DNA of 64,000 nt, taken from an uncultured Flavobacteriales bacterium. Lineage in GTDB: Bacteria; Bacteroidota; Bacteroidia; Flavobacteriales_G; Salibacteraceae. Numbering within the stretch: the stretch's first letter is position 1; each line of letters begins with the position of its first letter. Made by a program: the position numbers and the translations under genes. Shown here one piece after another: positions 3,948 through 31,963 of this stretch. Below the pieces are notes generated by a model that did no database searches, had not been told where the DNA came from, and saw nothing but the letters and a program-made list of their open reading frames with translations. The stretch covers positions 1 through 64,000 of the forward strand of contig CALSPD010000018.1 of assembly GCA_943788145.1 (NCBI GenBank), given 5' to 3'.

Positions 3948-5219
3948 ATGGAGTCAAACGAACAAATCATCGTTGGTTTAGACATTGGGACAACTAAAAT
4001 TGCCTGCCTTGTCGGAAGAAAAAATGAATTTGGTAAGCTGGAATTGCTCGGAATGGGTAAGTCCGAATCCGTAGGTGTGCGCAGAGGAGTTGTGTCCCAC
4101 ATTACTCCTGCAGTCCAAGCGATAAGGTTGGCCGTTGAAGATGCAAAGCTTAACTCAGGATTTGAAATTGTTGTGGTTAATGTCGGAATTGCTGGCCAAC
4201 ACATCAAGAGCTTACAACATAGAGGTGTTATTACGCTTGACAATCTTGAAGACGAGATTTCTCAAAAAGATGTAGATGCTTTAATTGCCGACATGCATAA
4301 ATTGGTGTTGCCTCCAGGTGAATCGATTATTCACGTGTTGCCGCAAGATTTTATCGTAGATAACGAAAGCGGAATTAAAGATCCGATCGGGATGAGCGGA
4401 ATTCGATTGGAGGCGAATTTTCACATCATTACAGGTTTAGTAACTGCCGTACAAAATATCTATAAATGTGTTCGAAAGGCAGATTTAGAAGTCGCTGATT
4501 TGACCCTAGAGCCATTAGCTTCAGCCGATGCGGTTTTAAGCGCTGAGGAGAAGGAAGCCGGAGTTGCACTGGTAGATATTGGTGGCGGAACAACAGACGT
4601 GGCAATTTTTCAAGATGGCATCATTCGTCACACAGCGGTTATACCTTTTGGTGGAAACATCATCACGGATGATATTAAAGAAGGTTGCACCATCATTAGA
4701 AAGCAAGCGGAATTGTTGAAAGTGAAGTTTGGCTCTGCTTTGGCGAGTGAAAACCAAGCCAATGATATCGTTGTTATCCCCGGATTAAGCGGTCGCGAAC
4801 CAAAGGAAATCAGCGTCAAAAATTTAGCGCACATCATCCAAGCACGGATGGAAGAAATAATCGAACAAGTTTATTTCGAAATAAGAAATTCAGGTTTCGA
4901 ACGCAAACTCATTGCAGGAATCGTAATCACCGGTGGTGGTTCGCAGCTAAAGCATATAACTCAGCTCTTCGAATATTTGACTGGAATGGATACGCGAATT
5001 GGTTATCCAACCGAGCATCTAGCTTCTGGCAACGATAAAGTTGCGAGTCCAATGTATGCAACGGGAGTGGGTCTAGTATTAAAGGGCTTTGAATACTCTG
5101 ATCGTCAGCAGAGACGAGTGTCGAGCGTTGGAACAAAGAAAATTCAAAAGAAAAATGGCTTGTTCGATAAGATTCTAAGCAAAGGCAAAGAGTGGTTCGA
5201 AGAAGACGATCAGTTTTAA
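3948..5219 (+). CDS. ftsA: FtsA, actin-like cell division protein
   Basis: Actin-fold ATPase of 423 residues that tethers FtsZ to the membrane and recruits later divisome proteins. Seen are the phosphate-1 motif GLDIGTTKIACLVG near the N terminus, the phosphate-2 motif VDIGGGTTDVAIF around residue 205, and the adenosine motif VITGGGSQLKHI around residue 327. The C terminus (GLFDKILSKGKEWFEED) is amphipathic and plausibly the membrane-binding helix. The length fits Bacteroidota FtsA. It lies 3 bases after ftsQ and 80 bases before ftsZ. No frame problems are present here. Confidence 0.97.
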   Translation: MESNEQIIVGLDIGTTKIACLVGRKNEFGKLELLGMGKSESVGVRRGVVSHITPAVQAIRLAVEDAKLNSGFEIVVVNVGIAGQHIKSLQHRGVITLDNLEDEISQKDVDALIADMHKLVLPPGESIIHVLPQDFIVDNESGIKDPIGMSGIRLEANFHIITGLVTAVQNIYKCVRKADLEVADLTLEPLASADAVLSAEEKEAGVALVDIGGGTTDVAIFQDGIIRHTAVIPFGGNIITDDIKEGCTIIRKQAELLKVKFGSALASENQANDIVVIPGLSGREPKEISVKNLAHIIQARMEEIIEQVYFEIRNSGFERKLIAGIVITGGGSQLKHITQLFEYLTGMDTRIGYPTEHLASGNDKVASPMYATGVGLVLKGFEYSDRQQRRVSSVGTKKIQKKNGLFDKILSKGKEWFEEDDQF

Positions 5220-5299: not shown

Positions 5300-6976
5300 A
5301 TGAAATTTGACCTACCAAAAGAAAACTCCAATATCATCAAGGTTCTTGGTGTTGGTGGAGGCGGAAGTAACGCAGTTAATCACATGTACCGTGCGGGTAT
5401 AGATGGCGTAGATTTCCTTGTTTGCAACACCGATCAACAAGCTTTGGATATTAGCCCGGTGCCCTTAAAAGTACAACTCGGTTCCACCTTAACCGAAGGG
5501 CGTGGAGCTGGTTCAATAGCCGAAGTAGGCAAGAATGCAGCTATTGAAACAATAGATGATATTAAAAGCATCATTTCCAATAACACTAAAATGCTGTTCA
5601 TCACTGCCGGAATGGGTGGTGGAACGGGTACCGGAGCTGCGCCTGTAATCGCAAAAACTGCTCGTGAAATGGGTGTCTTGACAGTAGGTATTGTTACCAT
5701 GCCTTTCTTTTTTGAAGGCAAGAAGAGAAGACAACAAGCCGAGCAAGGAATCGAAGACATTCGAGAAAACGTAGATACGTTGCTGATAATCAATAACGAA
5801 AAGCTACGCGAAATGTGTGGTAATTTACCAATCGCGCAGGCGTTTGCTATGGCAGATAATGTGCTTTCTACAGCTGCCAAGGGAATAGCGGAAATTATTA
5901 CGAGAACGGGCTATATCAACGTTGATTTTGAAGATGTTAGAACCGTAATGAGTGAGTCAGGTGTGGCAATCATGGGATCGGCACAAGCCGAAGGTGAAGA
6001 CCGAGCTACTAAAGCAGTAGAAAAGGCACTTTCATCACCATTGTTGAATGATAACAACATTCAGGGTGCGCGATATGTGCTACTCAATATCACGTTTGGA
6101 AACCAAGAAGTGTTGATGGATGAGATCAGCGATATTACAGATTACATCCAGGAAGAAGCAGGTGCTTCCGCTGACGTCATTTGGGGTTACGGCATGGATG
6201 AATCTTTAGGCGATTCGCTATCCGTTACCATCATTGCAACTGGGTTCAATCAAAATCCAAACACGGGTGTTAACCTCGAGCGAAACGTTGAAAAACGTAA
6301 AATGAATTTGGTTGATCCGCTTCCGACTGCGGTAAAGAAAGTAGAGGAAGAAGTTGACGAATCAAGTGAAGAAGAACCGTTTTTAAGGAAATCAACAGAG
6401 CAGGACTCAACACCTGCCGCTCCGATAGCGACCCCTGCCGAAAAACAACGGGTTTTCGAATTTGAAGTGAAGCGATATGATCTAGAGGATGCAACAGAAA
6501 TGGAAGCCCCAGATGAAAACAATGGGGTTTCTGATGATCAGAATGAAGTTGACGAAATGGAAAGCAACGAATCGGAACAAAAGGAGACAGGCTCGGATTG
6601 GGAGCCATATGTAAAAAGTACGGCAGCAGCGGAGGAGCCAAAACGGATTATTGACGAGACTCCAAGCTTTAAAACGGCTATGCCCGCAAATAATTCTAGT
6701 TCGAATAATGCATCAAAAGAAGAGCAAAGCCGAAGGGCTAGTGATCGATTGAGTCGATTGAGAGATTTGAGTATGAAACTGAGAACTCCTTCTGGAATGT
6801 CTGATTTAGAAAATGAGCCTGCATTTAAGCGTAAGCAAATCAATTTGGATGATGTTCCACATTCGGCTGAGAATAACGCTAGCCGCTTTACATTGGGGGA
6901 GGAAGAAGCGGAAGATGGGGAGAAACGAACACGGCTCCGACCCAATAATCCCTTTCTGCATGATAACGTGGATTAA
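5300..6976 (+). CDS. ftsZ: FtsZ, tubulin-like division GTPase
   Basis: GTPase that polymerises into the Z ring, 558 residues. The GTPase domain (about 1-320) shows GGGGSNAVNHM near residue 17 and the tubulin signature GMGGGTGTGAAP around residue 105. An unusually long acidic linker of about 220 residues follows (rich in Glu, Ser and Asp), ending in a conserved-looking C-terminal peptide RLRPNNPFLHDNVD, the probable FtsA-binding tail. Escherichia coli FtsZ has 383 residues, but long linkers are common in Bacteroidota. The ATG at 5300 is chosen because MKFDLPKENSNIIKVLGVGGGG places the core at the usual distance. A strong terminator follows. Confidence 0.98.
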   Translation: MKFDLPKENSNIIKVLGVGGGGSNAVNHMYRAGIDGVDFLVCNTDQQALDISPVPLKVQLGSTLTEGRGAGSIAEVGKNAAIETIDDIKSIISNNTKMLFITAGMGGGTGTGAAPVIAKTAREMGVLTVGIVTMPFFFEGKKRRQQAEQGIEDIRENVDTLLIINNEKLREMCGNLPIAQAFAMADNVLSTAAKGIAEIITRTGYINVDFEDVRTVMSESGVAIMGSAQAEGEDRATKAVEKALSSPLLNDNNIQGARYVLLNITFGNQEVLMDEISDITDYIQEEAGASADVIWGYGMDESLGDSLSVTIIATGFNQNPNTGVNLERNVEKRKMNLVDPLPTAVKKVEEEVDESSEEEPFLRKSTEQDSTPAAPIATPAEKQRVFEFEVKRYDLEDATEMEAPDENNGVSDDQNEVDEMESNESEQKETGSDWEPYVKSTAAAEEPKRIIDETPSFKTAMPANNSSSNNASKEEQSRRASDRLSRLRDLSMKLRTPSGMSDLENEPAFKRKQINLDDVPHSAENNASRFTLGEEEAEDGEKRTRLRPNNPFLHDNVD

Positions 6977-7033: not shown

Positions 7034-7151
7034 ATGCCTTTAGTGAAAGGGCGCAATTTTGGTTTTCCCAACGTTTTTGTTTATAACTTCGTATGCTATG
7101 CTAGTCTCCCAATTCTTTGGGAGTAATCTACGCTTACAAACCAAAAATATT

Positions 7152-10100
7152 ATGAGAAAATCTCTACTACTAACCCTAGGCTTGATTTCTTTTTTAAGCT
7201 CGCAAGTGAACGCTCAAACCTATATATGGGCTGAACAGTTTACGGGATCAAGTTACCAAATGCCCCAGGACCTTGAAGCCGATGTGAATGGCGCTACGTA
7301 TTCATGTGGCTGGATGATCGGAACTTCGACATTTGACACCATTTCATTGTCGGGTATTTCTTATGATGGTTTTGTTGTAAAATACAATAAGGATGGCCAT
7401 GCCCTTTGGGCGCAACGACTAGGTGGTACTTCGTACGATGGTGCTTTCCAAGTTGCTCGTGATGGCACAGATGGTGTGTATGTGGCAGGTTGGTTCTACG
7501 GGAATTTCGCAGTGGCGGATACTACACTTACCGGAACGGCCACCGACTATGATGCCTTCTTGGTGAAATTTGATACCAACGGTGTTTTTCAATGGGTGAA
7601 AACTCAAACAGGATCTGGATACACAAAACCTATTGGTTTGGAGGCAGATGATGATGGTGATGTTTATGTTCAAATAGGTTTTACGGGCAATTTTACCGCT
7701 GGTAGTAGCTCATTAACGGCAACGACAACGTCAACTAGCTTTTGTAATAATGCTTTAATAAAATATGACACGGACGGAAACTACCAGTGGAAAACCCAAA
7801 TAGAAGGCGATCATTATATCATAAACAGTTGGTATTGGGATTACGCAGGGGGCGTGGCTATCGATGGTAGCGGAAACCCTTATTGTACAGGTACCTTTAA
7901 CGTTTCTGACACCCTTGAAGTTGGGAGTTTGACTTTATTCTCAACTGCTGCTTATGATGCATATCTCGTAAAATTCAATCAGGCAAATGGAAACGCGAGT
8001 TGGGCGCGAAAAGGAGGTGGGTCATCTTATGAATATGGGACAAGTGTGCAGATTGACAACAACGATAAAATCTTTATTTCAGGTTACAACTACTCAACGA
8101 ATTCGGTTTTTGGTTCCGTTTCCTTAACTACTGCCGGACCATACTTTATGCGATACAACACATCGGGTTCAGCAATAGCTGGTCAATCCGGTGGAGGTTT
8201 GGCATACATGAATAGAATTTCCTTGGATAACGAGGGTAACCTCTATATGTCAGGGTTGATGGCGGCAAACAACAATATTTCTATGGGGGGTTTAAGCGTA
8301 ACAAATCCATCAGGATCAAGCTACACGCCTTATTTCTATAAGTATGATTACGCCAATTCAGACGCTGAATATTTAATTGCCCCAACTTCTTCGAGCAATA
8401 TTGAATATGAATGTGCTATAAGCGCTTACTCAGAAGATTATGTGTTTGCAAACGGGTCCTTTTATGGCACGACAGCATTCGGTTCTACATCGCTAATTAG
8501 TACAAGTTACGATGGCTTCTTAACTCGAATCGCTAATTGTGATCAATTGGTTGCCGTGGCTTCATCCTCTGCTGGAAATGCAGTATGTTCAGGAGAAATC
8601 ACTCAATTACAGGCCGATACCAATTCGCTTTACAGCTATCAATGGTTATATAATGGAGCGGTATTAAGCGGAGAGATTAATTCTACATACACTACTGGAA
8701 ATGCTGGGAACTATTCGGTAATAGTAGATAGCATTGGTTGTAAGGACACAAGTAATGTAATAGCCTTAACCATCAATAGTTTGCCTACGGTAACCCACTC
8801 AGCATTGGCATCAGTTTGTAATGGGGACGATCCATTCATATTATCAGGTGGAACACCTTCTGGAGGTACGTATTCAGGTTCTGCTGTAACAGGTGGCAAT
8901 ACGTTCAATCCGGGTTCAGCAGCCATCGGAAACAACTATGTTACTTATATATATACGAATGCAAATGGATGTACGGACAGCGTTACAAAGACCATCAACG
9001 TTCAATCTTCACCGGCCATTTTCACAACAACTATTTCCGCTTGTGCTAGCGATGGACCTATTTCGTTGGCATCATCTTCTTATGGTTATCCAACAGGAGG
9101 TTCGCACTCCGGAACTGGAGTGTCTGGAACAAATTTCAGTCCTACGGCTGCTGGTGCTGGAACGCATATAATATATTACACGTCTTCAAGCGGTTGCGTA
9201 TCGCCAGATTCTATAACGGCTACTGTGAATGCAGCTCCCTCCGTATCGTTGGGAAGTTTTACAAATAAGTGCGTCTCCGCTTCTGGATTCCTCTTAACAG
9301 GTGGTTCACCGAGTGGAGGGACATACAGTGGCTTAGGAGTTTTCGGGGCTTATTATTACCCTTCATTTGCAGGTACGGGAACACACAATGTCATTTATAC
9401 GGTCACTGCCAGCGGCTGTTCTGCTTCGGATACTTCGACCATTACTGTTGTTCCTGCAGCAAGTTCATCCATATCCACTTTCCCTGCATTATGTGAAGAT
9501 GCCGATACGCTTCATTTGGCTTCTTATGGAACGCCTAGTGGTGGAACATTCAGCGGAACTGGCGTTTCTTCTAATATTTTTAATCCGGGTACATCGGGTA
9601 GCGGGTCCTTTACAATTACCTATACATATACCAATGCTTGTGGAACCGCAACTGACACCGAGACTATGACTGTGAATGACTTGCCAACGGTAAGTATAAC
9701 TCCAACACACGTAAGCTGTAATGGTGGGTCTAATGGATCCGCCACTGCCGCAGGTTCTGGAACAGCATCTCCATACAGTTATGCTTGGAGTAGTGGAGCC
9801 AGTGTTGCAACAGCTACTGGACTGACTGCTGGAACATATACTGTTACAGTTACCGATAACAACGGTTGCGAAGAGACCGGAACCGTGACAATTACTCAAC
9901 CAACAGCATTATCTGTGTCAGCCACCGCTAATGCCACGTCATGTAATGGTGGTAGCAACGGTTTAGCAAGTGCCTTTGCATCGGGAGGGACAACTTCATA
10001 TACGTATTCCTGGAGTTCGGGTGCTGCATCTAGTATAGCTACAGGACTAACAGCGGGCACATACACCATTACCGTCACAGACGCGAATAGTTGTACAGCC

Positions 10101-13100
10101 ACTGCAACGGCTACGGTGACACAACCGACTGCTGTTGTAGCAAGTATTTCAGGTACGAACATCGGATGTAACGGTGCCACGAATGGTTCCGCCACGGCCA
10201 GCGCAACTGGTGGTACAGGAACGAAATCATTTGTTTGGAGTACAGGAGCCACAACAGCTTCAGTCTCTGGCCTAAGCGCAGGAACATATACGGTAACGGC
10301 AAGCGATGCCAATAGCTGTACAGATACGGAAACCGTTACTATTACTCAGCCGGCAGCTCTTGTCGCTAGCATTGGAACAACAACAAACGTGTCCTGTTTT
10401 GGAGGTTCCAACGGATCCGCTACGGCCTCGGCAACAGGAGGAACAGGGACTAAAACGTATGCGTGGTCTGGTGGTGGAGGTTCTTCCGCTACAGCTTCTT
10501 CATTAACTGCTGGAACGTACACAGTGACAGTAACGGATGCCAACGGATGTACCGACACTGAAACAACAACCATCACACAGCCTGCGACAGGGGTAACAAC
10601 GAGTGTAGGAACACCTACAAATGTGTCATGTAATGGCGGGTCAAATGGATCAGCCACTGCCTCTGCTACAGGTGGAACGGGAACAAAAACTTTTGTCTGG
10701 TCTTCTGGTTCAACTTCAGCAAGTGCAACAGGACTAACTGCAGGAACATACACGGTTACAGCAACGGACGCAAATGGCTGTACGGATACGGAAACAGTAT
10801 CCATTACTCAACCTTCTGCTCTTATTGCTTCGACTACCGTAACGAATAATGTGACCTGCAACGGTGCATCTAGCGGTGCTGCTAGTGCTTCAGCCACGGG
10901 GGGCACAACTGCTTACACCTACGTGTGGAGTACAGGAGCAACGACTTCCGCGGTGACAGGACTTGCCGCAGGGACATTTACAGTAACGGTTACTGACGCA
11001 AATGGCTGTACAGATACTGAAACAGTTACAATTACGCAACCGACAGTGTTAACTGCGGCCATTGGAACACCAACCAATGTCAGTTGCAATGGCGCATCCG
11101 ATGGATCGGCTACGGCTTCTGCTTCGGGAGGAACAACAGCATATACATATGCATGGAGCAATGGTGGTACAGCTGCTATCAATTCTGGGTTAGCGGCTGG
11201 AACGTACACAGTGACAATAACGGATGCCAATGGCTGCACCGACACTGAAACAACTACCATAACGCAACCGACAGCTTTGGTTGCATCTATTGGGACACCG
11301 ACAAATGTTTCATGCTTTGGAGGAGCTAATGGATCAGCAACAGCATCAGCAACAGGCGGAACAGGAACAAAAACGTATGCTTGGTCTGGTGGGGGTGGTT
11401 CGTCAGCTACTGCTTCTTCGCTCACAGCAGGAACCTATACTGTAACGGTAACCGATGCTAACGGTTGTACGGACACAGAATCAACCACCATTACACAACC
11501 ATCGACTGGGGTGACAGCAAGTATTGGAACTCCTAACAACGTAAGTTGTAATGGAGGTTCGAATGGATCGGCCACGGCTTCTGCTTCGGGAGGAACCGGA
11601 ACCATAACTTTTGCTTGGTCAACTGGAGCGACTACTGCCTCGGTTACCAGTCTTTCAGCAGGAACCTACACAGTTACAGCTACGGATGCCAATGGATGCA
11701 CCGATACTGAAACGGTGACAATTACTCAACCAACAGCGATAACGATTCCGACTTTAACAAGGGTGAATGTATCGTGTAATGGAGGAAATAATGGAACATT
11801 AACTGCCGTGCCAAGCGGTGGTACAGCGGCTTATACATATGCATGGACGACAGGTGCTACGACCGCAACGGCTACGGGATTAACAGCTGGATCATATACA
11901 GTAACGGTGACAGATGCAAATGGTTGTACTCAAACTAAAGTTAGAGCTGTTACTCAACCAACGGCAGTAGTTGCTAGTATTTCCGGTAATAATGTTTCTT
12001 GTAATGGCGGATCATCGGGTTCAGCAACAGCAAGTGCTTCAGGCGGTACGGGAACAAAATCGTTTGTATGGAGTACGGGAGCTACAACGGCAAGTGTTAC
12101 GGGATTGACTGCCGGAACTTACACTGTTACGGCAAGCGATGCAAACAGTTGTACAGATACAGAAACAGTCACCATCACTGAGCCAACAGCAGTTGTTGCA
12201 AGCATAGGAACACCAACCAACGTAAGTTGTAACGGTGGCTCAGATGGATCGGCAACAGCCTCAGCCAGCGGTGGAACAACGGCTTATACCTACGCATGGT
12301 CGTCAGGAGCCACAACAGCAGCAGCTACAGGGCTTACTGCTGGATCATACACCGTAACAGTAACCGATGCTAATGGATGCACCGACACAGAAACGACAAC
12401 GATAACACAACCTGCGACTGCTGTAACAGCGATTATTGGAACTCCTAACAACGTAAGTTGTAATGGAGCATCAGATGGATCGGCTACAGCATCAGGAACG
12501 GGTGGAACAGGAACAATAACATTTGCTTGGTCAACAGGTGCAACTTCGGCATCAGTAACTGGGCTTTCGGCAGGAACTTATACGGTTACCGCTACGGATG
12601 CAAATAGTTGTACCGATACTGAAACAGTAACGATTACTCAGCCATCGGCTCTAATAGCATCGATAGTTGCCGACAGCAATGTGAGTTGCAACGGTGCTTC
12701 TGACGGTGGAGCAACGGCTTCAGCGACAGGTGGAACAACAGCTTACACTTATGCTTGGAGTAATGGGGCTACTACATCGTCCATTACAGGAATAATTGCA
12801 GGAACATACACAGTTACAATAACCGATGCCAATGGATGTACGGATTCAGAGTCGGTAACAATTACAGAGCCTTCAGCTATGACGGCCTCGATCGGAACAC
12901 CAACCAATGCAAGTTGCAATGGCGCTTCGGATGGTTCGGCTACGGCTTCCGTTTCTGGAGGAACGGCAACGTTTACCTACGCTTGGAGTAATGGCGGTAC
13001 GTCTGCCACAAACTCAGGATTAGCGGCTGGAACTTACACCGTTACTGTAACGGACGCCAATGGATGTTCGGACACCGAATCGGTGACCATCACTGAGCCA

Positions 13101-16100
13101 ACAGCAGTTGTTGCAAGCATAGGAACACCAACTAACGTAAGTTGTAACGGTGGCTCAGATGGATCGGCAACAGCCTCAGCCAGCGGTGGAACAACGGCTT
13201 ATACCTACGCATGGTCGTCAGGAGCCACAACAGCAGCAGCTACAGGGCTTACTGCTGGATCATACACCGTAACAGTAACCGATGCTAATGGATGCACCGA
13301 CACAGAAACGACAACGATAACACAACCTGCGACTGCTGTAACAGCGATTATTGGAACTCCTAACAACGTAAGTTGTAATGGAGCATCAGATGGATCGGCT
13401 ACAGCATCAGGAACGGGTGGAACAGGAACAATAACATTTGCTTGGTCAACAGGTGCAACTTCGGCATCAGTAACTGGGCTTTCGGCAGGAACTTATACGG
13501 TTACCGCTACGGATGCAAATAGTTGTACCGATACTGAAACAGTAACGATCACTCAGCCATCGGCTCTAATAGCATCGATAGTTGCCGACAGCAATGTGAG
13601 TTGCAACGGTGCTTCTGATGGAGGCGCAACGGCATCAGCGACAGGTGGAACAACAACTTACACCTATTCGTGGTCAAATGCAGCTACTACTGCTTCAATT
13701 ACAGGTGTTATCGCTGGAACATACAGCGTAACGATTACAGATGCTAATGGATGTACAGACTCGGCTTCAGTTACCATTACAGAACCAGCATCAGTCATCG
13801 CATCTGCAGTATTGGACAACAACGCAAGTTGCAATGGCGCTTCCGATGGAGGCGCAACAGCATCCGCAACAGGAGGAACAACAGCATACACCTACTCATG
13901 GTCGAACGCAGCTACAACAGCAACCGTCACGGGGTTGGCCGTTGGAACGTACAGTGTAACCATTACCGATGCAAACGGATGTACGGACTCGGCCTCAGTT
14001 ACCATTACAGAGCCAGCATCAGTCATCGCATCAGCTGTTGTGGACAACAACGCAAGTTGTAATGGTGGGGCAGATGGAGGAGCTACGGCTTCAGCCACAG
14101 GTGGAACAACGTCATATACTTACACTTGGTCGAATGCGGCAACAACTGCTTCAATTACAGGTGTTATCGCTGGAACATACAGCGTAACAATTACGGATGC
14201 CAATGGATGTACAGACTCTGCTTCGGTTACGATTACAGAACCAACTCAGTTAGTAACCTCGAGCGTTGTTGACAGCAACACAACATGTAACGGAACTGCC
14301 GATGGAGGAGCTACTGCATCAGCCACAGGCGGAACAGGAACATACACTTACACTTGGTCCAATGCAGCAACAACTGCTTCTATAACTGGTGTCAACGCTG
14401 GAACATATAGTGTAACCATTACGGATGCCAATGGATGTACAGACTCTAGTTCCGTTACGATTACGGAGCCCGCTTCGCTCATCGCTTCAGGCGTAGTTGA
14501 CAATAATGCAAGTTGTAACGGAGCTTCCGATGGAGGCGCAACGGCATCAGCGACAGGTGGAACAACAACTTACACCTATTCGTGGTCAAATGCAGCTACT
14601 ACTGCTTCAATTACAGGTGTTATCGCTGGAACATACAGCGTAACGATTACAGATGCTAATGGATGTACAGACTCGGCTTCAGTCACGATTACAGAACCAG
14701 CTTCACTGGTTGCGACTGGTGTGGTGAACAACCATGTAAGTTGCAACAGTGGATCGAATGGATCAGCAACAGCATCCGCAACAGGAGGAACAACAGCATA
14801 CACCTACTCATGGTCGAACGCAGCTACAACAGCAACCGTCACAGGATTGGCCGCTGGAACATACAGTGTAACCATTACAGATGCAAACGGATGTACGGAC
14901 TCTAGTTCAGTAACGATTGCAGAACCAACAATGTTGGTGGTTAGTGCCTCGGTCGATAGTAATTCAAGTTGTTCTTCAACAGCGAATGGAGTGGCATCGG
15001 CAAGTGCGTCAGGTGGAATCACTCCATATACATATGCTTGGAGTTCTGGCGCTTCAACTGCAATTGCGACAGGTTTGGCAAATGGTCAGCATGTTGTAAC
15101 CATTACGGACGCGAATGGTTGCTCGGATACGGCTTCCGTGAATATTTTAGTCTTGGATACTGTTTTGCCGACAGTTATTGCACACAACATAACGCGCTAT
15201 TTAGGGAATAATGGAATGGATACCATTACTGCCGCAATGGTTGATTCTGCATCATATGACAATTGCGCAATCGATTCCATGTGGGTAGACCAAATTTCAT
15301 TTGATTGCGCTGACCTCGGAGCAAATCTGGTCACCCTTTATGTGTTAGACGTAAATGGCAACCTAGATTCAGCGAATGCAACTATTACTGTTGTAGACAC
15401 AACTGGTCCACAGGCATTGGCAATATCATCTATTTATGTTTGGCTAGACGGTTCCGGAAACGCTTCGATTTCAGCGGCTTCTGTGGATTCTTCCTCGTAT
15501 GATAATTGTAGCGTTGACTCAATGTGGCTAAGCGATAGTCTTTTCGATTGTACGGACTCTGTGGCCTACATTAGTCTTTATGTAAAGGATGGCTCGGGTA
15601 ATGTGTCAACAGCGAACCTCACTACAGTTGTTGTGAATGACAGCATTTCACCAACGGTCATATCGCAAAACATTACTGCTTATCTGGATGCTTCGGGAGA
15701 GGCAATTATTTCGGCTTCTCAACTTGACGGAGGATCATTCGATAATTGTGCGGTGGTTTCCCTTTGGACTTGGGACACATTGTTTACTTGCGATTCCGTT
15801 GGAGTAAGATCAGTGCCATTGTATGCTTCTGATGCTTGGGGGAATACTTCCATCGCATTTGCATCTGTCACTGTGCTTGATACGCTCGCACCAGTGATTT
15901 TAGCTCAGAACTTAACGGTGTACCTGAATAATGACGGATGGGCAACGATTGACACTTCATTGATAAATACAGGAACGTTTGACAATTGTTCGATTGACTC
16001 TATGTGGTTAAGCGATAGCATTTTTGATTGTGCTGATGTTGGAACAGTTTCCATTCAGTTCTATGCTTCGGATTTAAGTGGGAATGTTTCTAATGAAACT

Positions 16101-18269
16101 GTCAGTATTACCGTAGTAGATTCTATTGCACCAACGATAGTTGCAAGCAACCAGATCGGCTATTTAGATGCGAATGGAACTTTTAGTCTGGATGTTTATC
16201 AAGTTGGTCTTGGTTCGTATGATTCATGTGGATTGGATTCTATGTGGCTCAGCCAGTCAGAGTTTGGATGTACAGATATTGGGCTCAATTATATTTCAAT
16301 AAGCGCAATCGATATTAATGGAAACCAACGTACTACTGGATTATCGGTAACGATACTCGATACATTAACAACGGTTGTGGTGTACATTGATTCTGCTATT
16401 CTGTGCCACGGATTGAATAATGGACAGTTAACCGCAAATGCCTCTGGCATGTCATCCACTTACAATTATTCTTGGAGCAATAGCTCAACGAGTAGCACTA
16501 TTAATGGATTAGGAGCGAACACTTACATCGTAACCGCTACGGATGTCAATGGTTGTAGTGCTGTAGATTCGGCTACGCTCATTGAACCGGATGCACTGAT
16601 AGGTTCGTTATCTGCAATGGATATTTCCTGTTATGGTCTTGCCAATGGATATGCCGCAACTTCTGTTTCTGGCGGAACTTCAGCTTATTCTTACGTGTGG
16701 AATACGAGTGCAACCACTGACTCTATAGGAGGTCTCCTTGCGGGCATTTATACCGTGACTATCTCAGATGTAAATGATTGTCAGCTCGTTTTAGACACAA
16801 CAATAGTTGAACCCGATTCGCTTGTTGTAACTGTGATACTATCAGACACCTCATTGTGTTTCGGAGATACATCGGCCTTCGCTATTGCTACAGTCAATGG
16901 AGGTACATCACAATATGCGTTTGATTGGATTGGTACGGGAGTTACTAACGACACGTTGAGCAATATAGGTGCTGGCACATATATTCTTCTAGTAACAGAC
17001 GGTAGCGGTTGCGTGGCGTCTGATACGCAAACTATCACTTCTGACACATTACCGATTGTCACATTATCATTACCAATAGATAGTACATGTCAGTTCGTGT
17101 CGGTTGAGCTTACGGGACAAACTCCAATCGGTGGTGTATTTAGTGGAGCGGGAGTAGTTGCAGATACATTGTTCACAGATACGCTCACGGGATGGAATAC
17201 AGTTTATTATACTTTCTCTGACGCCAATGGATGCGCAGGAAGTGCAATGGACTCGGTCTTCGTGACGCCTTCTCCTAACATTTCGTTCACTAGTTTGCCA
17301 ATTGAAATTTGCGGTGGAACTTCTATTCCACTTGATTTCGCCATGCCATTCGGAGGTGTATATAGCGGAGACGCCTACATCATTGACACAACAAACAACT
17401 TATTAGTTGGTCCGGACACGGGTTATGCAGGAATTGGTGTTTACACCTATTCAAATGAATGTGGTGCTGATACGCAATCCTTTAACATTCTTGTTCACGC
17501 TACTCCGATAGTAGATTTAGGTGATGACGTTACTTTATGCAATGCTTCAACCATTGTCTTCAATGCTGGAGTTCACAACTCATACAATTGGTTTGATGGA
17601 ACCAACGGATCTACATTAACACTGAATGATGGTGAAGTTCCTTTGACGGAAGATGTTATAGTCTGGGTTGAAGTTTCAGATTCTATGGGTTGTTTAGGTT
17701 CAGATTCAGTTTATGTGACGGTTGATGATCAGCCGATATTCTACCTAGGAAATAACATAGTGGCTTGCTTGAAAGATGTTGTTACCCTCACTGTCGATAG
17801 TGTTTATGACAATTTTGTTTGGAGTACAGGAGATACCTCCTTGTCTATTATTGCTCACGATGGAAGTATGATGACACCGGGTAATTATCCGTTCTGGGTA
17901 ACTGGTTCAAACGAGGCAGGAGGGTGTAGCTATACTGACACGATATACGTTCAGCTGAATGATTGTGACTCAAGCTTCGTAGGTATTGAGCAAGTCGAAT
18001 CTTTGGTGAACATTGCTTTTGAAGTGTATCCAAACCCAACGCAAAACAACTTCAATGTTCGAGGCGCTGACGGAACAAATGCCGACATCTCAAGAATCGT
18101 TATTCAAGGTATGAGAGGAGATATTTCTAAGGTGTTTAGAATGGCCGACTTTAATTACACGAATGGCGAAATTCAACTAGACGTGCAAGATCTTGCCAAC
18201 GGGGTTTACCTGATGTCGATCGAGCATCAATATGGAATTAATACAGTAAGGGTTATAGTTGGGAAATAA
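7152..18269 (+). CDS. Giant secreted SprB-repeat adhesin-like protein with type IX sorting domain
   Basis: 3705-residue surface protein. The start at 7152 is chosen because it gives a clean signal peptide (MRKSLLLTLGLISFLSSQVNA). In order: a propeller-like region of about 440 residues with repeated YDGFVVKYNKDG / YDAFLVKFDTNG segments; Ig/PKD-like modules with repeated GGTYSG...FNP (about 470-845); 24 tandem SprB repeats of about 76 residues (about 845-2668), each with SCNG..., AWS.GA, AGTYTVTVTDANGCTD and TITQP; five HYR-like repeats (about 2669-3073); three more diverged SprB-like repeats; further PKD-like modules; and a C-terminal domain beginning FEVYPNPTQNNF and ending GVYLMSIEHQYGINTVRVIVGK, a type A type IX secretion signal. 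SprB of Flavobacterium johnsoniae is the known gliding adhesin with such repeats; adhesion or gliding is an inference here. gldH is its convergent neighbour. Confidence 0.93.
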   Translation: MRKSLLLTLGLISFLSSQVNAQTYIWAEQFTGSSYQMPQDLEADVNGATYSCGWMIGTSTFDTISLSGISYDGFVVKYNKDGHALWAQRLGGTSYDGAFQVARDGTDGVYVAGWFYGNFAVADTTLTGTATDYDAFLVKFDTNGVFQWVKTQTGSGYTKPIGLEADDDGDVYVQIGFTGNFTAGSSSLTATTTSTSFCNNALIKYDTDGNYQWKTQIEGDHYIINSWYWDYAGGVAIDGSGNPYCTGTFNVSDTLEVGSLTLFSTAAYDAYLVKFNQANGNASWARKGGGSSYEYGTSVQIDNNDKIFISGYNYSTNSVFGSVSLTTAGPYFMRYNTSGSAIAGQSGGGLAYMNRISLDNEGNLYMSGLMAANNNISMGGLSVTNPSGSSYTPYFYKYDYANSDAEYLIAPTSSSNIEYECAISAYSEDYVFANGSFYGTTAFGSTSLISTSYDGFLTRIANCDQLVAVASSSAGNAVCSGEITQLQADTNSLYSYQWLYNGAVLSGEINSTYTTGNAGNYSVIVDSIGCKDTSNVIALTINSLPTVTHSALASVCNGDDPFILSGGTPSGGTYSGSAVTGGNTFNPGSAAIGNNYVTYIYTNANGCTDSVTKTINVQSSPAIFTTTISACASDGPISLASSSYGYPTGGSHSGTGVSGTNFSPTAAGAGTHIIYYTSSSGCVSPDSITATVNAAPSVSLGSFTNKCVSASGFLLTGGSPSGGTYSGLGVFGAYYYPSFAGTGTHNVIYTVTASGCSASDTSTITVVPAASSSISTFPALCEDADTLHLASYGTPSGGTFSGTGVSSNIFNPGTSGSGSFTITYTYTNACGTATDTETMTVNDLPTVSITPTHVSCNGGSNGSATAAGSGTASPYSYAWSSGASVATATGLTAGTYTVTVTDNNGCEETGTVTITQPTALSVSATANATSCNGGSNGLASAFASGGTTSYTYSWSSGAASSIATGLTAGTYTITVTDANSCTATATATVTQPTAVVASISGTNIGCNGATNGSATASATGGTGTKSFVWSTGATTASVSGLSAGTYTVTASDANSCTDTETVTITQPAALVASIGTTTNVSCFGGSNGSATASATGGTGTKTYAWSGGGGSSATASSLTAGTYTVTVTDANGCTDTETTTITQPATGVTTSVGTPTNVSCNGGSNGSATASATGGTGTKTFVWSSGSTSASATGLTAGTYTVTATDANGCTDTETVSITQPSALIASTTVTNNVTCNGASSGAASASATGGTTAYTYVWSTGATTSAVTGLAAGTFTVTVTDANGCTDTETVTITQPTVLTAAIGTPTNVSCNGASDGSATASASGGTTAYTYAWSNGGTAAINSGLAAGTYTVTITDANGCTDTETTTITQPTALVASIGTPTNVSCFGGANGSATASATGGTGTKTYAWSGGGGSSATASSLTAGTYTVTVTDANGCTDTESTTITQPSTGVTASIGTPNNVSCNGGSNGSATASASGGTGTITFAWSTGATTASVTSLSAGTYTVTATDANGCTDTETVTITQPTAITIPTLTRVNVSCNGGNNGTLTAVPSGGTAAYTYAWTTGATTATATGLTAGSYTVTVTDANGCTQTKVRAVTQPTAVVASISGNNVSCNGGSSGSATASASGGTGTKSFVWSTGATTASVTGLTAGTYTVTASDANSCTDTETVTITEPTAVVASIGTPTNVSCNGGSDGSATASASGGTTAYTYAWSSGATTAAATGLTAGSYTVTVTDANGCTDTETTTITQPATAVTAIIGTPNNVSCNGASDGSATASGTGGTGTITFAWSTGATSASVTGLSAGTYTVTATDANSCTDTETVTITQPSALIASIVADSNVSCNGASDGGATASATGGTTAYTYAWSNGATTSSITGIIAGTYTVTITDANGCTDSESVTITEPSAMTASIGTPTNASCNGASDGSATASVSGGTATFTYAWSNGGTSATNSGLAAGTYTVTVTDANGCSDTESVTITEPTAVVASIGTPTNVSCNGGSDGSATASASGGTTAYTYAWSSGATTAAATGLTAGSYTVTVTDANGCTDTETTTITQPATAVTAIIGTPNNVSCNGASDGSATASGTGGTGTITFAWSTGATSASVTGLSAGTYTVTATDANSCTDTETVTITQPSALIASIVADSNVSCNGASDGGATASATGGTTTYTYSWSNAATTASITGVIAGTYSVTITDANGCTDSASVTITEPASVIASAVLDNNASCNGASDGGATASATGGTTAYTYSWSNAATTATVTGLAVGTYSVTITDANGCTDSASVTITEPASVIASAVVDNNASCNGGADGGATASATGGTTSYTYTWSNAATTASITGVIAGTYSVTITDANGCTDSASVTITEPTQLVTSSVVDSNTTCNGTADGGATASATGGTGTYTYTWSNAATTASITGVNAGTYSVTITDANGCTDSSSVTITEPASLIASGVVDNNASCNGASDGGATASATGGTTTYTYSWSNAATTASITGVIAGTYSVTITDANGCTDSASVTITEPASLVATGVVNNHVSCNSGSNGSATASATGGTTAYTYSWSNAATTATVTGLAAGTYSVTITDANGCTDSSSVTIAEPTMLVVSASVDSNSSCSSTANGVASASASGGITPYTYAWSSGASTAIATGLANGQHVVTITDANGCSDTASVNILVLDTVLPTVIAHNITRYLGNNGMDTITAAMVDSASYDNCAIDSMWVDQISFDCADLGANLVTLYVLDVNGNLDSANATITVVDTTGPQALAISSIYVWLDGSGNASISAASVDSSSYDNCSVDSMWLSDSLFDCTDSVAYISLYVKDGSGNVSTANLTTVVVNDSISPTVISQNITAYLDASGEAIISASQLDGGSFDNCAVVSLWTWDTLFTCDSVGVRSVPLYASDAWGNTSIAFASVTVLDTLAPVILAQNLTVYLNNDGWATIDTSLINTGTFDNCSIDSMWLSDSIFDCADVGTVSIQFYASDLSGNVSNETVSITVVDSIAPTIVASNQIGYLDANGTFSLDVYQVGLGSYDSCGLDSMWLSQSEFGCTDIGLNYISISAIDINGNQRTTGLSVTILDTLTTVVVYIDSAILCHGLNNGQLTANASGMSSTYNYSWSNSSTSSTINGLGANTYIVTATDVNGCSAVDSATLIEPDALIGSLSAMDISCYGLANGYAATSVSGGTSAYSYVWNTSATTDSIGGLLAGIYTVTISDVNDCQLVLDTTIVEPDSLVVTVILSDTSLCFGDTSAFAIATVNGGTSQYAFDWIGTGVTNDTLSNIGAGTYILLVTDGSGCVASDTQTITSDTLPIVTLSLPIDSTCQFVSVELTGQTPIGGVFSGAGVVADTLFTDTLTGWNTVYYTFSDANGCAGSAMDSVFVTPSPNISFTSLPIEICGGTSIPLDFAMPFGGVYSGDAYIIDTTNNLLVGPDTGYAGIGVYTYSNECGADTQSFNILVHATPIVDLGDDVTLCNASTIVFNAGVHNSYNWFDGTNGSTLTLNDGEVPLTEDVIVWVEVSDSMGCLGSDSVYVTVDDQPIFYLGNNIVACLKDVVTLTVDSVYDNFVWSTGDTSLSIIAHDGSMMTPGNYPFWVTGSNEAGGCSYTDTIYVQLNDCDSSFVGIEQVESLVNIAFEVYPNPTQNNFNVRGADGTNADISRIVIQGMRGDISKVFRMADFNYTNGEIQLDVQDLANGVYLMSIEHQYGINTVRVIVGK
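12172..12702 (+). repeat. 531-bp near-identical duplication, copy 1
   Basis: Aligned by eye with 13087-13617 at a constant offset of 915 bp; only two substitutions were found in 531 bases. It covers repeat units 12 and 13 and the start of unit 14. Confidence 0.93.
13087..13617 (+). repeat. 531-bp near-identical duplication, copy 2
   Basis: Second copy of the block at 12172-12702, covering repeat units 16 and 17 and the start of unit 18. Immediately downstream the similarity to copy 1 drops and is replaced by near-identity to sequence 912 bp further on. Confidence 0.93.
13616..13771 (+). repeat. Second duplicated patch within the array, copy 1
   Basis: Identical by eye to about 14528-14683 (offset 912 bp, four repeat units). 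A further patch, 13861-13930, matches 14773-14842 at the same offset, with diverged sequence between the two patches. Confidence 0.88.
15156..16370 (+). repeat. Five HYR-like protein repeats
   Basis: Five coding repeats of about 80 residues inside the giant protein. Each starts with a D(T/S)xxP motif, has (D/S)NC(S/A)(I/V)DSMW in the middle (degenerate in some) and an FDC.D.G block before a V-D end. They resemble the HYR/Ig-like modules of extracellular adhesion proteins. They are more diverged from each other than the SprB units. Confidence 0.85.
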
Positions 18270-19313: not shown

Positions 19314-20951
<1,638 letters not shown>

Positions 20952-29548: not shown

Positions 29549-30568
29549 ATGAATATTAAAAGCTTGAAATACGCGTTACTGTTAATGTTGTCAGTGTTTA
29601 TTACTGGTCAACTTGAAGCACAACAAGACCCGCAATTTAGTATGAACATGAGTACAAAACTCTATGTGAATCCTGCGTTTGCTGGCATGAATGACGGTAT
29701 ATGTGTCAATATGCTTGGACGACAACAATGGGTTGGTTTCGAAGGCCGACCAGAAACATATTTAATGTCGGGTCATGGCACATTTATGATTCCCGGCATT
29801 CATTTAAGAAGTGGAGGTGGGATATCTTTAATAGGTGACGGATTGGGGCAAATGCATTTTACGGGCCTCAAGGCATCATATAGTGCACATATTCCATTAA
29901 ACTTTATTGGCGGTGAGCCTGGGCATTTGGGAATTGGTGTATCAGCGGGATTATTGCAAGTTGCAATGGGAAGTAATTGGAGAAGTAACGTAGAAGCGTA
30001 TTTAGATCCAGTAATTAACGATGTGCAATACGCGGTAAACGGCTTTGACATGGATCTCGGAATATACTATAGAACAAAAGATGTGTTTTTTGGCTTATCG
30101 GCTACGCATTTAAATGCAGCGGATTTTCAAGCCGAAGGCTCCGAGTTGGTTGACTTTGGTGGAGTTGCGTGGAATACTCAGTTTGATATGGCACGACACT
30201 TCTATTTAATGGGAGGTTACGATTTTGAAATACCTAATTATAATTTGATTGTACTGAAGCCATCTGTATTTGTTAAGACCGATTTGGTGTCTGCCCAGAT
30301 AGATCTTAATATGATAGCTGAGTGGAATCATTTTCTTTGGGGAGGTATTACATATAGATATAATGATGCCATCGTGGCGCTGGGTGGAGTGAATATTGGC
30401 CCGAGTTTTATTCCAAAGGGAAATATTAGGGCGGGTTATGCATATGATGTTACCACCTCAAGAATAGGTAAAGGTAGCAATGGCTCGCATGAACTATTCG
30501 TGCAGTACTGCCTAAAGCTTAAGACTCAGCCACCAGTACAAAAACATAAGACAGTAAGATTCTTATAG
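29549..30568 (+). CDS. PorP/SprF family type IX secretion outer-membrane protein
   Basis: 339-residue predicted outer-membrane beta-barrel. Signal peptide ending ITGQLEAQ, then the family hallmark QDPQFSMNMSTKLYVNPAFAG followed by GICVNMLGRQQWVGFEGRPETY. Alternating hydrophobic strands continue to the end. PorP/SprF proteins link the type IX machine to the outer membrane and some assist export of SprB-type adhesins. It is immediately upstream of gldK-gldL-gldM-gldN, the usual porP-K-L-M-N order. The start ATG gives the signal peptide directly. Confidence 0.95.
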   Translation: MNIKSLKYALLLMLSVFITGQLEAQQDPQFSMNMSTKLYVNPAFAGMNDGICVNMLGRQQWVGFEGRPETYLMSGHGTFMIPGIHLRSGGGISLIGDGLGQMHFTGLKASYSAHIPLNFIGGEPGHLGIGVSAGLLQVAMGSNWRSNVEAYLDPVINDVQYAVNGFDMDLGIYYRTKDVFFGLSATHLNAADFQAEGSELVDFGGVAWNTQFDMARHFYLMGGYDFEIPNYNLIVLKPSVFVKTDLVSAQIDLNMIAEWNHFLWGGITYRYNDAIVALGGVNIGPSFIPKGNIRAGYAYDVTTSRIGKGSNGSHELFVQYCLKLKTQPPVQKHKTVRFL

Positions 30569-30630
30569 AATAGATTACTTTTGACGCTTTTCTTAAATAA
30601 AGAAAGACCCCAAAGACAGATAAATTAAAA

Positions 30631-30636
30631 AGGAGG
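30631..30636 (+). promoter_or_regulatory. Strong Shine-Dalgarno sequence before gldK
   Basis: AGGAGG lies 4 bases before the gldK ATG at 30641. Bacteroidota genes generally lack such sites, and other starts in this window are preceded by A-rich sequence only, so it stands out. The spacing is shorter than the usual 5-9 bases. Confidence 0.6.
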
Positions 30637-30640
30637 AATT

Positions 30641-31963
30641 ATGAAAAACATGCTAAAATTATCGGCCTTGGCAATTTTTGCGTTGCCGTTTTTGCTAAGC
30701 AGTTGCGGTAACTCCGGGAGTGGTCAGCTCGTTGGTGTTCAGAATAGAATCCAATGGTTTCAACCAGATCCATATGGAATGCTTTACTTGCCAATGGGAT
30801 CCTATAATATGGGGCCTAGCGATCAAGACGTTCCTTCCGCAAGTACGACAAAGTCGAAAACTGTTTCTGTTCAGGCATTTTATATGGATGAAACAGAAAT
30901 CACAAATAATGAGTACCGTCAATTTGTTTATTGGGTTCGTGATTCGATCGCGCACCGAATAATTGGAGATGAAGTAGATGAAGAACATCTTATCATGGTT
31001 AACCAATATGATGAGGATATTGACCCACCGCATATTAATTGGAATGAGCGTATTTCATGGGATGATCCAGAACAAAGAGAGGCCCTTGAAGTGATGTATT
31101 ATCCAGAGTTTGAGCGTTTTCGAGGTAGAAGGGAAATGGATGGACGGAAATTGGACTATGAATACTTCTGGATTGATTATCGCGATGCAGCGAGAAAGGG
31201 TGGTCCAGGAGCTCCCTTACGACAAAGAGGAATGACCGATCGTTCTGTATTCATTAAGCGAGATGTGATCAATGTTTATCCGGATACTTTGGTCTGGGTG
31301 CATGATTTTACTTACTCGTTCAATGAACCAATGACTAAGATGTATTTCAGTCATCCTGCATACGATGATTATCCTGTTGTGGGTGTGACCTGGAAGCAAG
31401 CTCGAGCCTTTGGTATATGGAGAACCGATCTATTAAATCAGTATTTAAGAAGTATTGGTGGAGTTAAAGTTCAAGATTTTCGATTACCGACTGAATCTGA
31501 ATGGGAGTACGCTGCTAGGGGAGGCTTGGATTTGGCGCCATTTCCATGGGGTGGTCCATACATCAGAAACACAAGAGGTTGTTTTCTAGCGAACTTTAAA
31601 CCTATGAGAGGTAATTATGTTGATGACGGAGGATTCCATACGGTACCAGTTACATCTTACCAACCGAATGACTATGGTTTGTATTGTATGTCAGGTAATG
31701 TTGCAGAATGGACTAGTAATGCGTACGATGAATCTTCCTACGATTTCGCTCATGATTTAAACATGGACTACGTTTATGAAGCAAAAGATGATGACCCTCC
31801 CGTTTTAAAACGAAAGGTGATTCGAGGAGGCAGCTGGAAAGATATCAGCTATTATCTCCAAACTGGAACTCGTACTTACGAATATCAGGATACTGCGAAA
31901 AGTTATATTGGTTTCCGTTGCGTTATGTCGTATTTAGGACGTGCCAAAGGAGACGATATTTAA
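30641..31963 (+). CDS. gldK: GldK, type IX secretion ring lipoprotein
   Basis: 440-residue lipoprotein with lipobox LLSSCGN near residue 22. The body is a sulfatase-modifying-factor-like (FGE) fold: YLPMGSYNMGPSDQD, VQAFYMDETEITNNEYRQFV, LPTESEWEYAARGG, GLYCMSGNVAEWTSNAYD and VIRGGSWKD. GldK (PorK) forms the large periplasmic ring with GldN in the type IX secretion system. GldJ is the related alternative, but the position immediately before gldL-gldM-gldN supports GldK. The ATG is preceded by AGGAGG. Confidence 0.96.
   Translation: MKNMLKLSALAIFALPFLLSSCGNSGSGQLVGVQNRIQWFQPDPYGMLYLPMGSYNMGPSDQDVPSASTTKSKTVSVQAFYMDETEITNNEYRQFVYWVRDSIAHRIIGDEVDEEHLIMVNQYDEDIDPPHINWNERISWDDPEQREALEVMYYPEFERFRGRREMDGRKLDYEYFWIDYRDAARKGGPGAPLRQRGMTDRSVFIKRDVINVYPDTLVWVHDFTYSFNEPMTKMYFSHPAYDDYPVVGVTWKQARAFGIWRTDLLNQYLRSIGGVKVQDFRLPTESEWEYAARGGLDLAPFPWGGPYIRNTRGCFLANFKPMRGNYVDDGGFHTVPVTSYQPNDYGLYCMSGNVAEWTSNAYDESSYDFAHDLNMDYVYEAKDDDPPVLKRKVIRGGSWKDISYYLQTGTRTYEYQDTAKSYIGFRCVMSYLGRAKGDDI

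Follow-up and report, generated by a model that had tools for sequence, protein, structure and literature searches.

A four-unit higher-order repeat nested in an older eight-unit duplication in a giant SprB-repeat gene of an uncultured Flavobacteriales bacterium

Background

Alpha-satellite higher-order repeats consist of divergent monomers that recur in near-identical blocks, with a lineage-specific interior and conserved edges. Here we analyse an array that resembles them in form, located in a giant SprB-repeat gene within a window of 64,000 nucleotides (positions 1 to 64,000, forward strand, of contig CALSPD010000018.1, assembly GCA_943788145.1) from an uncultured Flavobacteriales bacterium of the Salibacteraceae; its units form four-unit blocks inside an older eight-unit duplication. 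Among proteins, domain repeats often expand several domains at once, nebulin by seven and fibronectin-3 mostly by four, according to PMC1553488. In titin, likeness between domains that share a super-repeat position is greatest in the central repeats and lower in the first and last (PMC10665226). SprB of Flavobacterium johnsoniae is described, in PMC12635249, as a type B substrate of the type IX secretion system (T9SS) with an SprF carrier.

An earlier note on this DNA likened the arrangement to eukaryotic satellites. This comparison holds in form, given divergent units in repeated blocks, a mostly species-specific interior and conserved edges, but the window array is protein-coding, appears to be under purifying selection and has far fewer copies, and titin and nebulin are the closer comparison. 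As in the multi-domain expansions treated in PMC1553488, distant units are more alike than neighbours, several domains were duplicated together, and the idea of autocorrelation applies; those families are largely eukaryotic and often multi-exon, whereas here a single-exon bacterial gene has a period of four nested in eight at a locus that can be compared across species. With titin A-band super-repeats, as PMC10665226 presents them, the array shares repeats of repeats in a giant protein and the greatest likeness among central super-repeats, but titin periods comprise 7 and 11 domains, mix Ig and FnIII and follow the thick filament, while the window array has one domain type and is not known to have such a partner. 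F. johnsoniae SprB (PMC12635249) and the window gene have in common the SprB repeat family PF13573 and the T9SS route to the surface; the window gene differs in its type A tail and in the distance, about 11 kb, to the nearest PorP/SprF-family match. The window gene is clearly a bacterial case of the known super-repeat pattern of titin, nebulin and alpha-satellite; in the literature searched, judged by titles, higher-order repeats of SprB units were not found described.

Results

The 24 SprB units counted in the earlier note were recovered in the open reading frame (ORF) 7059-18269 at a spacing of 75-78 aa, and a looser profile gave 27, the extra three being degenerate and downstream of the 24. 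Units were aligned as protein and as codons, identity was averaged per lag, and significance was taken from 5,000 permutations. Among lags 1-12 the highest mean DNA identity of the 24 units was at lag 4 (71.2%, z 6.5, p 0.0002, the permutation floor), compared with 65.7, 66.0, 65.3 and 63.5% at lags 1, 2, 3 and 5, and 66.5% (z 2.5) at lag 8. Protein identity was 73.5% at lag 4 (z 5.0), 70.1% at lag 1 (z 3.4) and 69.5% at lag 8 (z 2.4). The lag-4 peak that the note had anticipated is thus present, and the similarity peaks at multiples of the unit, above their neighbours, that mark a higher-order repeat are found at lag 4 and, in the old layer described below, at lag 8.

The four-unit super-period that had been proposed is borne out by this peak and by a four-unit spacing of 912-918 bp, but only 9/20 lag-4 pairs reach at least 70% DNA identity (the remaining 11 are below, over a base of 62.9%) and an eight-unit layer lies underneath. 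Pairs 4/8, 5/9, 9/13, 9/17, 12/16, 13/17 and 18/22 are more alike in DNA than their members are to immediate neighbours, as stated at the outset; the pair 19/23 fails in this respect, unit 19 resembling its neighbour 18 (82%) more than unit 23 (80%). Units 18-24 alone show no significant lag-4 excess (p 0.095 in DNA, 0.31 in protein).

The layers of the array and the order of their ages can be read from unit comparisons. The youngest is a 578-bp block, the two copies of which, at a lag of 915, are 98.8% identical and differ by 6 synonymous third positions and 1 amino-acid change (7 differences), with a longest exact stretch of 416 bp at 12219-12634. Much of the lag-4 signal in the window is carried by this block, which spans 578 bp of the 915-bp period. 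The observation in the earlier note is upheld in part; departures from it include a near-identical block shorter than a whole period and the lack of a significant lag-4 excess within units 18-24. Second-youngest is a repeat inside the sub-array of units 18-24 (13599-13990 vs 14511-14902; 392 bp, lag 912, 91%).

Beneath these lies an old duplication of units 2-9 into units 10-17. When pairs 12/16 and 13/17 are left out, units 2-17 retain a strong lag 8 (z 5.1 and p 0.0003 at 70.5% in DNA; z 4.4 at 77.2% in protein) and a weak lag 4 (DNA z 1.7, p 0.052; protein p 0.091). In DNA, units 2-9 are best assigned to units 10-17 one-to-one and in order (p about 9e-5, 100,000 permutations), and the sole departure in protein is a swap of units 12 and 16, which are identical in protein. 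The register is kept between quartets 2-5 and 6-9 (protein 75.3% vs 66.3-68.0% at other shifts), while quartets 6-9 and 10-13 are out of register in protein (70.7% vs 71.9% at another shift). Taken together, the lag-8 signal, the ordered mapping and the quartet registers place the four-unit period inside an eight-unit one.

Units 4 and 8, which group together in the unit tree (support 0.99), are 92% identical in protein (pN 0.045, pS 0.667; dN 0.046, dS 1.66, dN/dS 0.03), and their identity at four-fold sites, 0.40, lies within the 0.29-0.40 predicted from pooled codon use. Pairs 3/11 and 7/15 have protein identities of 86% and 84% and pS values of 0.78 and 0.67. At the other end, dS falls to 0.22 in 18/22, 0.02 in 13/17 and 0 in 12/16, the last two pairs being about 100% identical in DNA; saturated synonymous values give a lower bound on age only. 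Both halves of the contrast drawn in the earlier note, old pairs alike in protein but different at synonymous sites and young pairs nearly identical in DNA, are recovered. Because pair 4/8 keeps its protein likeness despite saturated synonymous sites, the sequence comparison supports purifying selection on SprB units, which would keep the domains alike after synonymous saturation.

A second gene provides a view of the same process between species. Its orthologues in G011 (locus L056) and G005 (L057) have 49 units each, with 48/49 unit starts equal. Across units 7-23 identity at lag 4 is 75.2% in L057 and 84.8% in L056, lag 1 being about 70%, and this older lag-4 zone at the same units in both places the lag-4 period before the species split. 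In L056, units 11-16 match units 15-20 at 91-100%, while the corresponding pairs in L057 stand at 72-81%; of the sites that distinguish units 12 and 16 in L057, L056 unit 12 carries the unit-16 base at 29 and the unit-12 base at 8. Lag-4 re-homogenisation therefore took place in L056 with no net change in unit number, by conversion or by balanced gain and loss of four. Since the 578-bp block of the window is shorter than the period and the unit number of the second gene is unchanged, the rounds need not all have been amplification. The earlier proposal of repeated four-unit amplification with selection on protein thus stands as to rounds at a four-unit spacing and as to selection, both of which gain support from the comparison with relatives, but has to accommodate the eight-unit layer and rounds that may have been something other than amplification.

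At the locus of the window gene, groEL adjoins the orthologue in 6/6 loci (G012 (L049), G011 (L050), G001, G004, G005 and G009), and the order ftsA-ftsZ-gene-groEL is present in G012 and G011, the two contigs that reach that far; in the other four the contig ends inside the array. Lag-4 pairs 4/8 to 12/16 of the G012 orthologue are 94-100% identical in DNA, and pairs 3/7 to 11/15 of the G011 orthologue 90-100%, with a quartet different from that of G012; in both, whole blocks are near-identical between copies. Recent duplicates (unit pairs at 85% DNA identity or more) occur in 5/7 arrays at the locus, with main lag 4 in each, and are absent from the incomplete arrays of G005 (10 units) and G009 (7 units); the G011 array has additional single pairs at lags 1, 3, 7 and 11.

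A tree built on the 117 units of the 7 loci shows the edges of the array to be orthologous and its interior to be mostly species-specific. At the edges, units 1, 2 and 24-27 of the window fall with the corresponding units of other species, whereas most interior units cluster within species at lag 4, or in the window at lag 8 for 3/11, 6/14 and 7/15. As exceptions, interior unit 10 joins the unit-2 group, and units 18-22 fall in with G012 orthologue units 18-24 (support 0.93). The closest match lies in the same array for 19/27 units in the window, 21/28 in G012, 12/24 in G011, 8/12 in G001 and 7/9 in G004; reciprocal best units number 8 between window and G012 and 4 between window and G011. It looks, from these alignments, as though relatives re-made their own four-unit blocks at one locus, the spacing being inherited while the sequence turned over. 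Register homology of quartets between arrays was also considered, and gave a mixed picture: for the G012 gene pair the cyclic order is the best of 24 orders in protein and second in DNA, and the remaining two comparisons rank 2-4.

We further surveyed arrays of at least 5 units, after dropping seven duplicate arrays. Thirty genus loci were chosen from matches to the C-terminal part of the window gene and one, L051, was noticed through a 915-bp match spacing, so the genus sample is not random; 40 family loci were chosen among the matches listed, and wider-phylum loci were the best 80 of 564. In the genus, 9 of 35 arrays have recent duplicates, and the main lag is 4 in 9/9. For other genera of the family the figures are 41 arrays and 10 with recent duplicates (main lag 1 in five, 2 in one, 3 in one, 4 in three), and for the wider phylum 82 and 22 (1 in nine, 2 in six, 3 in three, 4 in four). 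The genus (9/9) differs from elsewhere (7/32) with a Fisher p of 3e-5, kinship not corrected, and main lag 4 is kept by 9/9 genus arrays at 90% identity and 5/5 at 95%. L051 (G012:C3:214000-233500) supplies two of the nine, probably from one broken gene, giving 8 genes; its array gene is spread over three ORFs, of 2,051, 534 and 1,803 aa, through frameshift, decay or sequencing error, and it was placed in the L056 family by unit position and length, not by synteny.

Many arrays without recent duplicates have no clear period; L054 prefers lag 3, and L052 and L072 prefer lag 5 about equally to, or above, lag 4. A universal rule of four is ruled out by main lags outside the genus of 1 (14), 2 (7), 3 (4) and 4 (7) among 32 arrays at 85%; one array each has main lag 9 (at 80%), 7 (at 90%) and 7 (at 95%). 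A phylum-wide ancient structural period is unsupported once pairs of at least 75% DNA identity are masked. As side observations, L054 (G000:C25:24000-36000) and L081 (DDCZ01000011.1, UBA1993) share 12,001 bp at 99.9% identity, reflecting a mis-binned contig or a very recent transfer. UBA1993 appears to be the same as G001 (L080 duplicates L070), the orthologue of which is 59% identical to the window gene in the C-terminal part. L199 (G030:C12:109000-127000) has a giant ORF, without SprB units, with a near-identical 726-bp repeat; its matches are spaced by this length as well, and the repeat may comprise three domains of about 81 aa.

Other SprB-repeat genes of the genus behave differently. The G000:C7 kind, of about 4,000 aa and with a type B tail in 5/5 tested, is represented by nine arrays that keep their unit order between species, with 41/41 collinear reciprocal units in the best pair and 15 as the lowest collinear count, and none of their unit pairs exceeds 71% DNA identity. 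By tail, among the 124/158 arrays with a complete end, recent duplicates are found in 21/63 type A, 5/48 type B and 5/13 unclassified arrays (A vs B p 0.006, kinship not corrected, with the 15 tails on which the classifier was trained also counted), and within the genus in 7/19 type A vs 0/7 type B (p 0.13). This is suggestive of recent unit duplicates being commoner in type A than in type B genes.

The giant gene lies between ftsA-ftsZ and groEL, with groEL on the opposite strand (Table 1). Its ORF encodes 3,736 residues; a likely start is ATG 7152, which in the translation is followed by a signal-peptide-like stretch. SprB PF13573 scores 627 bits (cut-off 28) over 26 stretches in Pfam, and Por_Secre_tail is matched too, while the N-terminal part (7152-9650) is without a match in NCBIfam. 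No type B sorting tail was matched in the gene; the type A model TIGR04183 is above cut-off instead. A PorP/SprF-family gene is not adjacent, the nearest match on the contig being 29570-30508, whereas the SprB-repeat gene of G000:C7 has both a type B tail and such a gene beside it. The T9SS translocon gene is present in the genome as two SprA-family pieces, each over the cut-off; they sit at contig ends, at the start of G000:C8 and the start of C11. In the window, 29549-31963 may be a T9SS or gliding cluster, judging by the PorP/SprF-family gene followed by a weak GldJ-like match at 30761-31942, below model cut-off. The array has a G+C content of 49% vs 42% for the whole window. In 14 aligned units C2 and C52 are invariant cysteines, which may form a disulphide in each domain.

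Table 1. Coordinates of the giant gene, its repeat layers and flanking markers in the window
Feature	Position	Strand	Remarks
Giant SprB-repeat gene	7152..18269 (ORF from 7059)	+	ORF and translation; TTG opens ORF at 7059
Array, 24 SprB units of 75-78 aa	9714..15152	+	units cut at conserved Cys motif
Units 2-9, first copy of old eight-unit block	9939..11771	+	matched one to one by units 10-17
Unit 4, old lag-4 partner of unit 8	10392..10625	+	78 aa, Gly-rich insertion
Unit 8, old lag-4 partner of unit 4	11310..11543	+	
Units 10-17, second copy of old eight-unit block	11772..13598	+	
Young block, copy 1	12171..12748	+	end of unit 11, units 12-13, start of unit 14
Young block, copy 2	13086..13663	+	end of unit 15, units 16-17, start of unit 18
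Units 18-24, separate younger sub-array	13599..15152	+	
T9SS type A sorting tail	18024..18260	+	TIGR04183 29.2 bits (cut-off 23); PF18962 35 bits (cut-off 27)
ftsA	3948..5219	+	upstream synteny marker
ftsZ	5300..6976	+	upstream synteny marker
groEL	19314..20948	-	downstream synteny marker

Discussion

We consider it probable that the array is a nested higher-order repeat, with four-unit blocks in an older eight-unit duplication, whose period is inherited while its units are replaced, and which is kept by identity-guided recombination or conversion. Neighbouring units would be too diverged to recombine well, while units four apart share longer exact runs: in the window, runs of at least 25 bp are found in 5/20 lag-4 pairs vs 3/136 pairs at lags 1-3 and 5-8. 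With such runs, unequal exchange and gene conversion would act mostly at lag 4, and each event would copy or overwrite units in register and so pass the period on. In a toy model, a simulation of identity-dependent exchange, a period of 4 or 8 was kept by both lineages in 25/25 pairs under each of 4 settings.

Several observations weigh against this reading. The nine genus arrays are not independent, since they represent eight genes of two, perhaps three, gene families, and when the threshold is lowered to 80% ten genus arrays have main lag 4 and two have main lag 1. Window unit 5 groups with G012 units, and units 4 and 8 with one from G001; in G005, where matches to G011 units are frequent, 0/10 units are closest to their own array, and in G009 1/7. 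Quartets of different arrays agree in register only mixedly, and in L056 only unit 12 shows a clear direction, the other pairs not settling one. In the toy model, runs without a starting period gave no events at the strict setting and a broad range of lags at permissive ones, and the lag of a single founder duplication persisted in just 2 to 6 of 30 runs; the model thus supports inheritance of a period and leaves the choice of four unexplained.

A rather unlikely alternative to an inherited period is that four is a selected structural unit, for example four SprB domains per fibre turn or binding period, a modular ruler in which only whole-quartet changes are tolerated. This would agree with the uniform main lag of the genus, seen in at least two gene families, with its recurrence in 7/32 arrays elsewhere, and with unmasked identity outside the genus, which is raised up to lag 4 and drops at lag 5 (lag 4 exceeding lag 5 with p at most 0.0001 in each of the two groups). 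However, under masking of pairs at 75% DNA identity or more, which is itself biased against lag 4, this lag is not above lag 3 (53/104 arrays, p 0.48) and is barely above lag 5 (63/104, p 0.045); 25/32 arrays outside the genus have main lags 1-3, and lag-4 signals are weak in the collinear type B arrays of the genus. Compared with solved structures, the quartet had no match at E 0.1, and the unit profile had only weak matches, to phage decoration and whisker proteins (best E 2e-4). The grappling-hook protein was not matched at E 0.01 by the first 3,000 aa of the Aureispira array (L109).

It is also improbable that each species amplified its quartets independently, four being due to chance or to a local recombination length near 0.9 kb. 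Differing quartets and the clustering of most interior units by species are what this would predict, but the excess of lag 4 in the genus over arrays elsewhere (with kinship uncorrected, as above) and the older lag-4 zone common to L056 and L057 weigh against it. A fixed length near 0.9 kb is unsupported, as in a small, unplanned sample of 14 ORFs with recent non-SprB repeats from the same loci the strongest lag was at 900-950 bp in 0/14. An assembly artefact, in which the assembler duplicated or misjoined the near-identical block, is very unlikely: the genome is a draft of 31 contigs, and the region is hard to assemble since the G001, G004, G005 and G009 arrays lie at contig ends, but the block copies differ at 7 mostly synonymous sites, few-contig genomes (G011 with 7, G012 with 10) carry longer lag-4 arrays at the same locus, and the older layers are independent of the young block.

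Conclusions

To the known kind of super-repeat this case adds a four-unit period within an eight-unit one, quartets that differ among several species at a single locus, and a copy-neutral lag-4 event in the second gene. It also shows that counting the repeats of such adhesins from draft genomes calls for long reads. Most likely the gene encodes a long surface fibre or adhesin that is exported by the T9SS and whose length and surface would change in four-domain steps, an adhesin function being suggested by the repeats and the tail. Synonymous sites serve as a rough clock for the repeat layers, and the collinear sister type B SprB-repeat genes of the genus form a built-in contrast. In one compact gene of a single exon it is thus possible to trace, across species at one syntenic locus, how a higher-order repeat arose, doubled from four to eight and was inherited.

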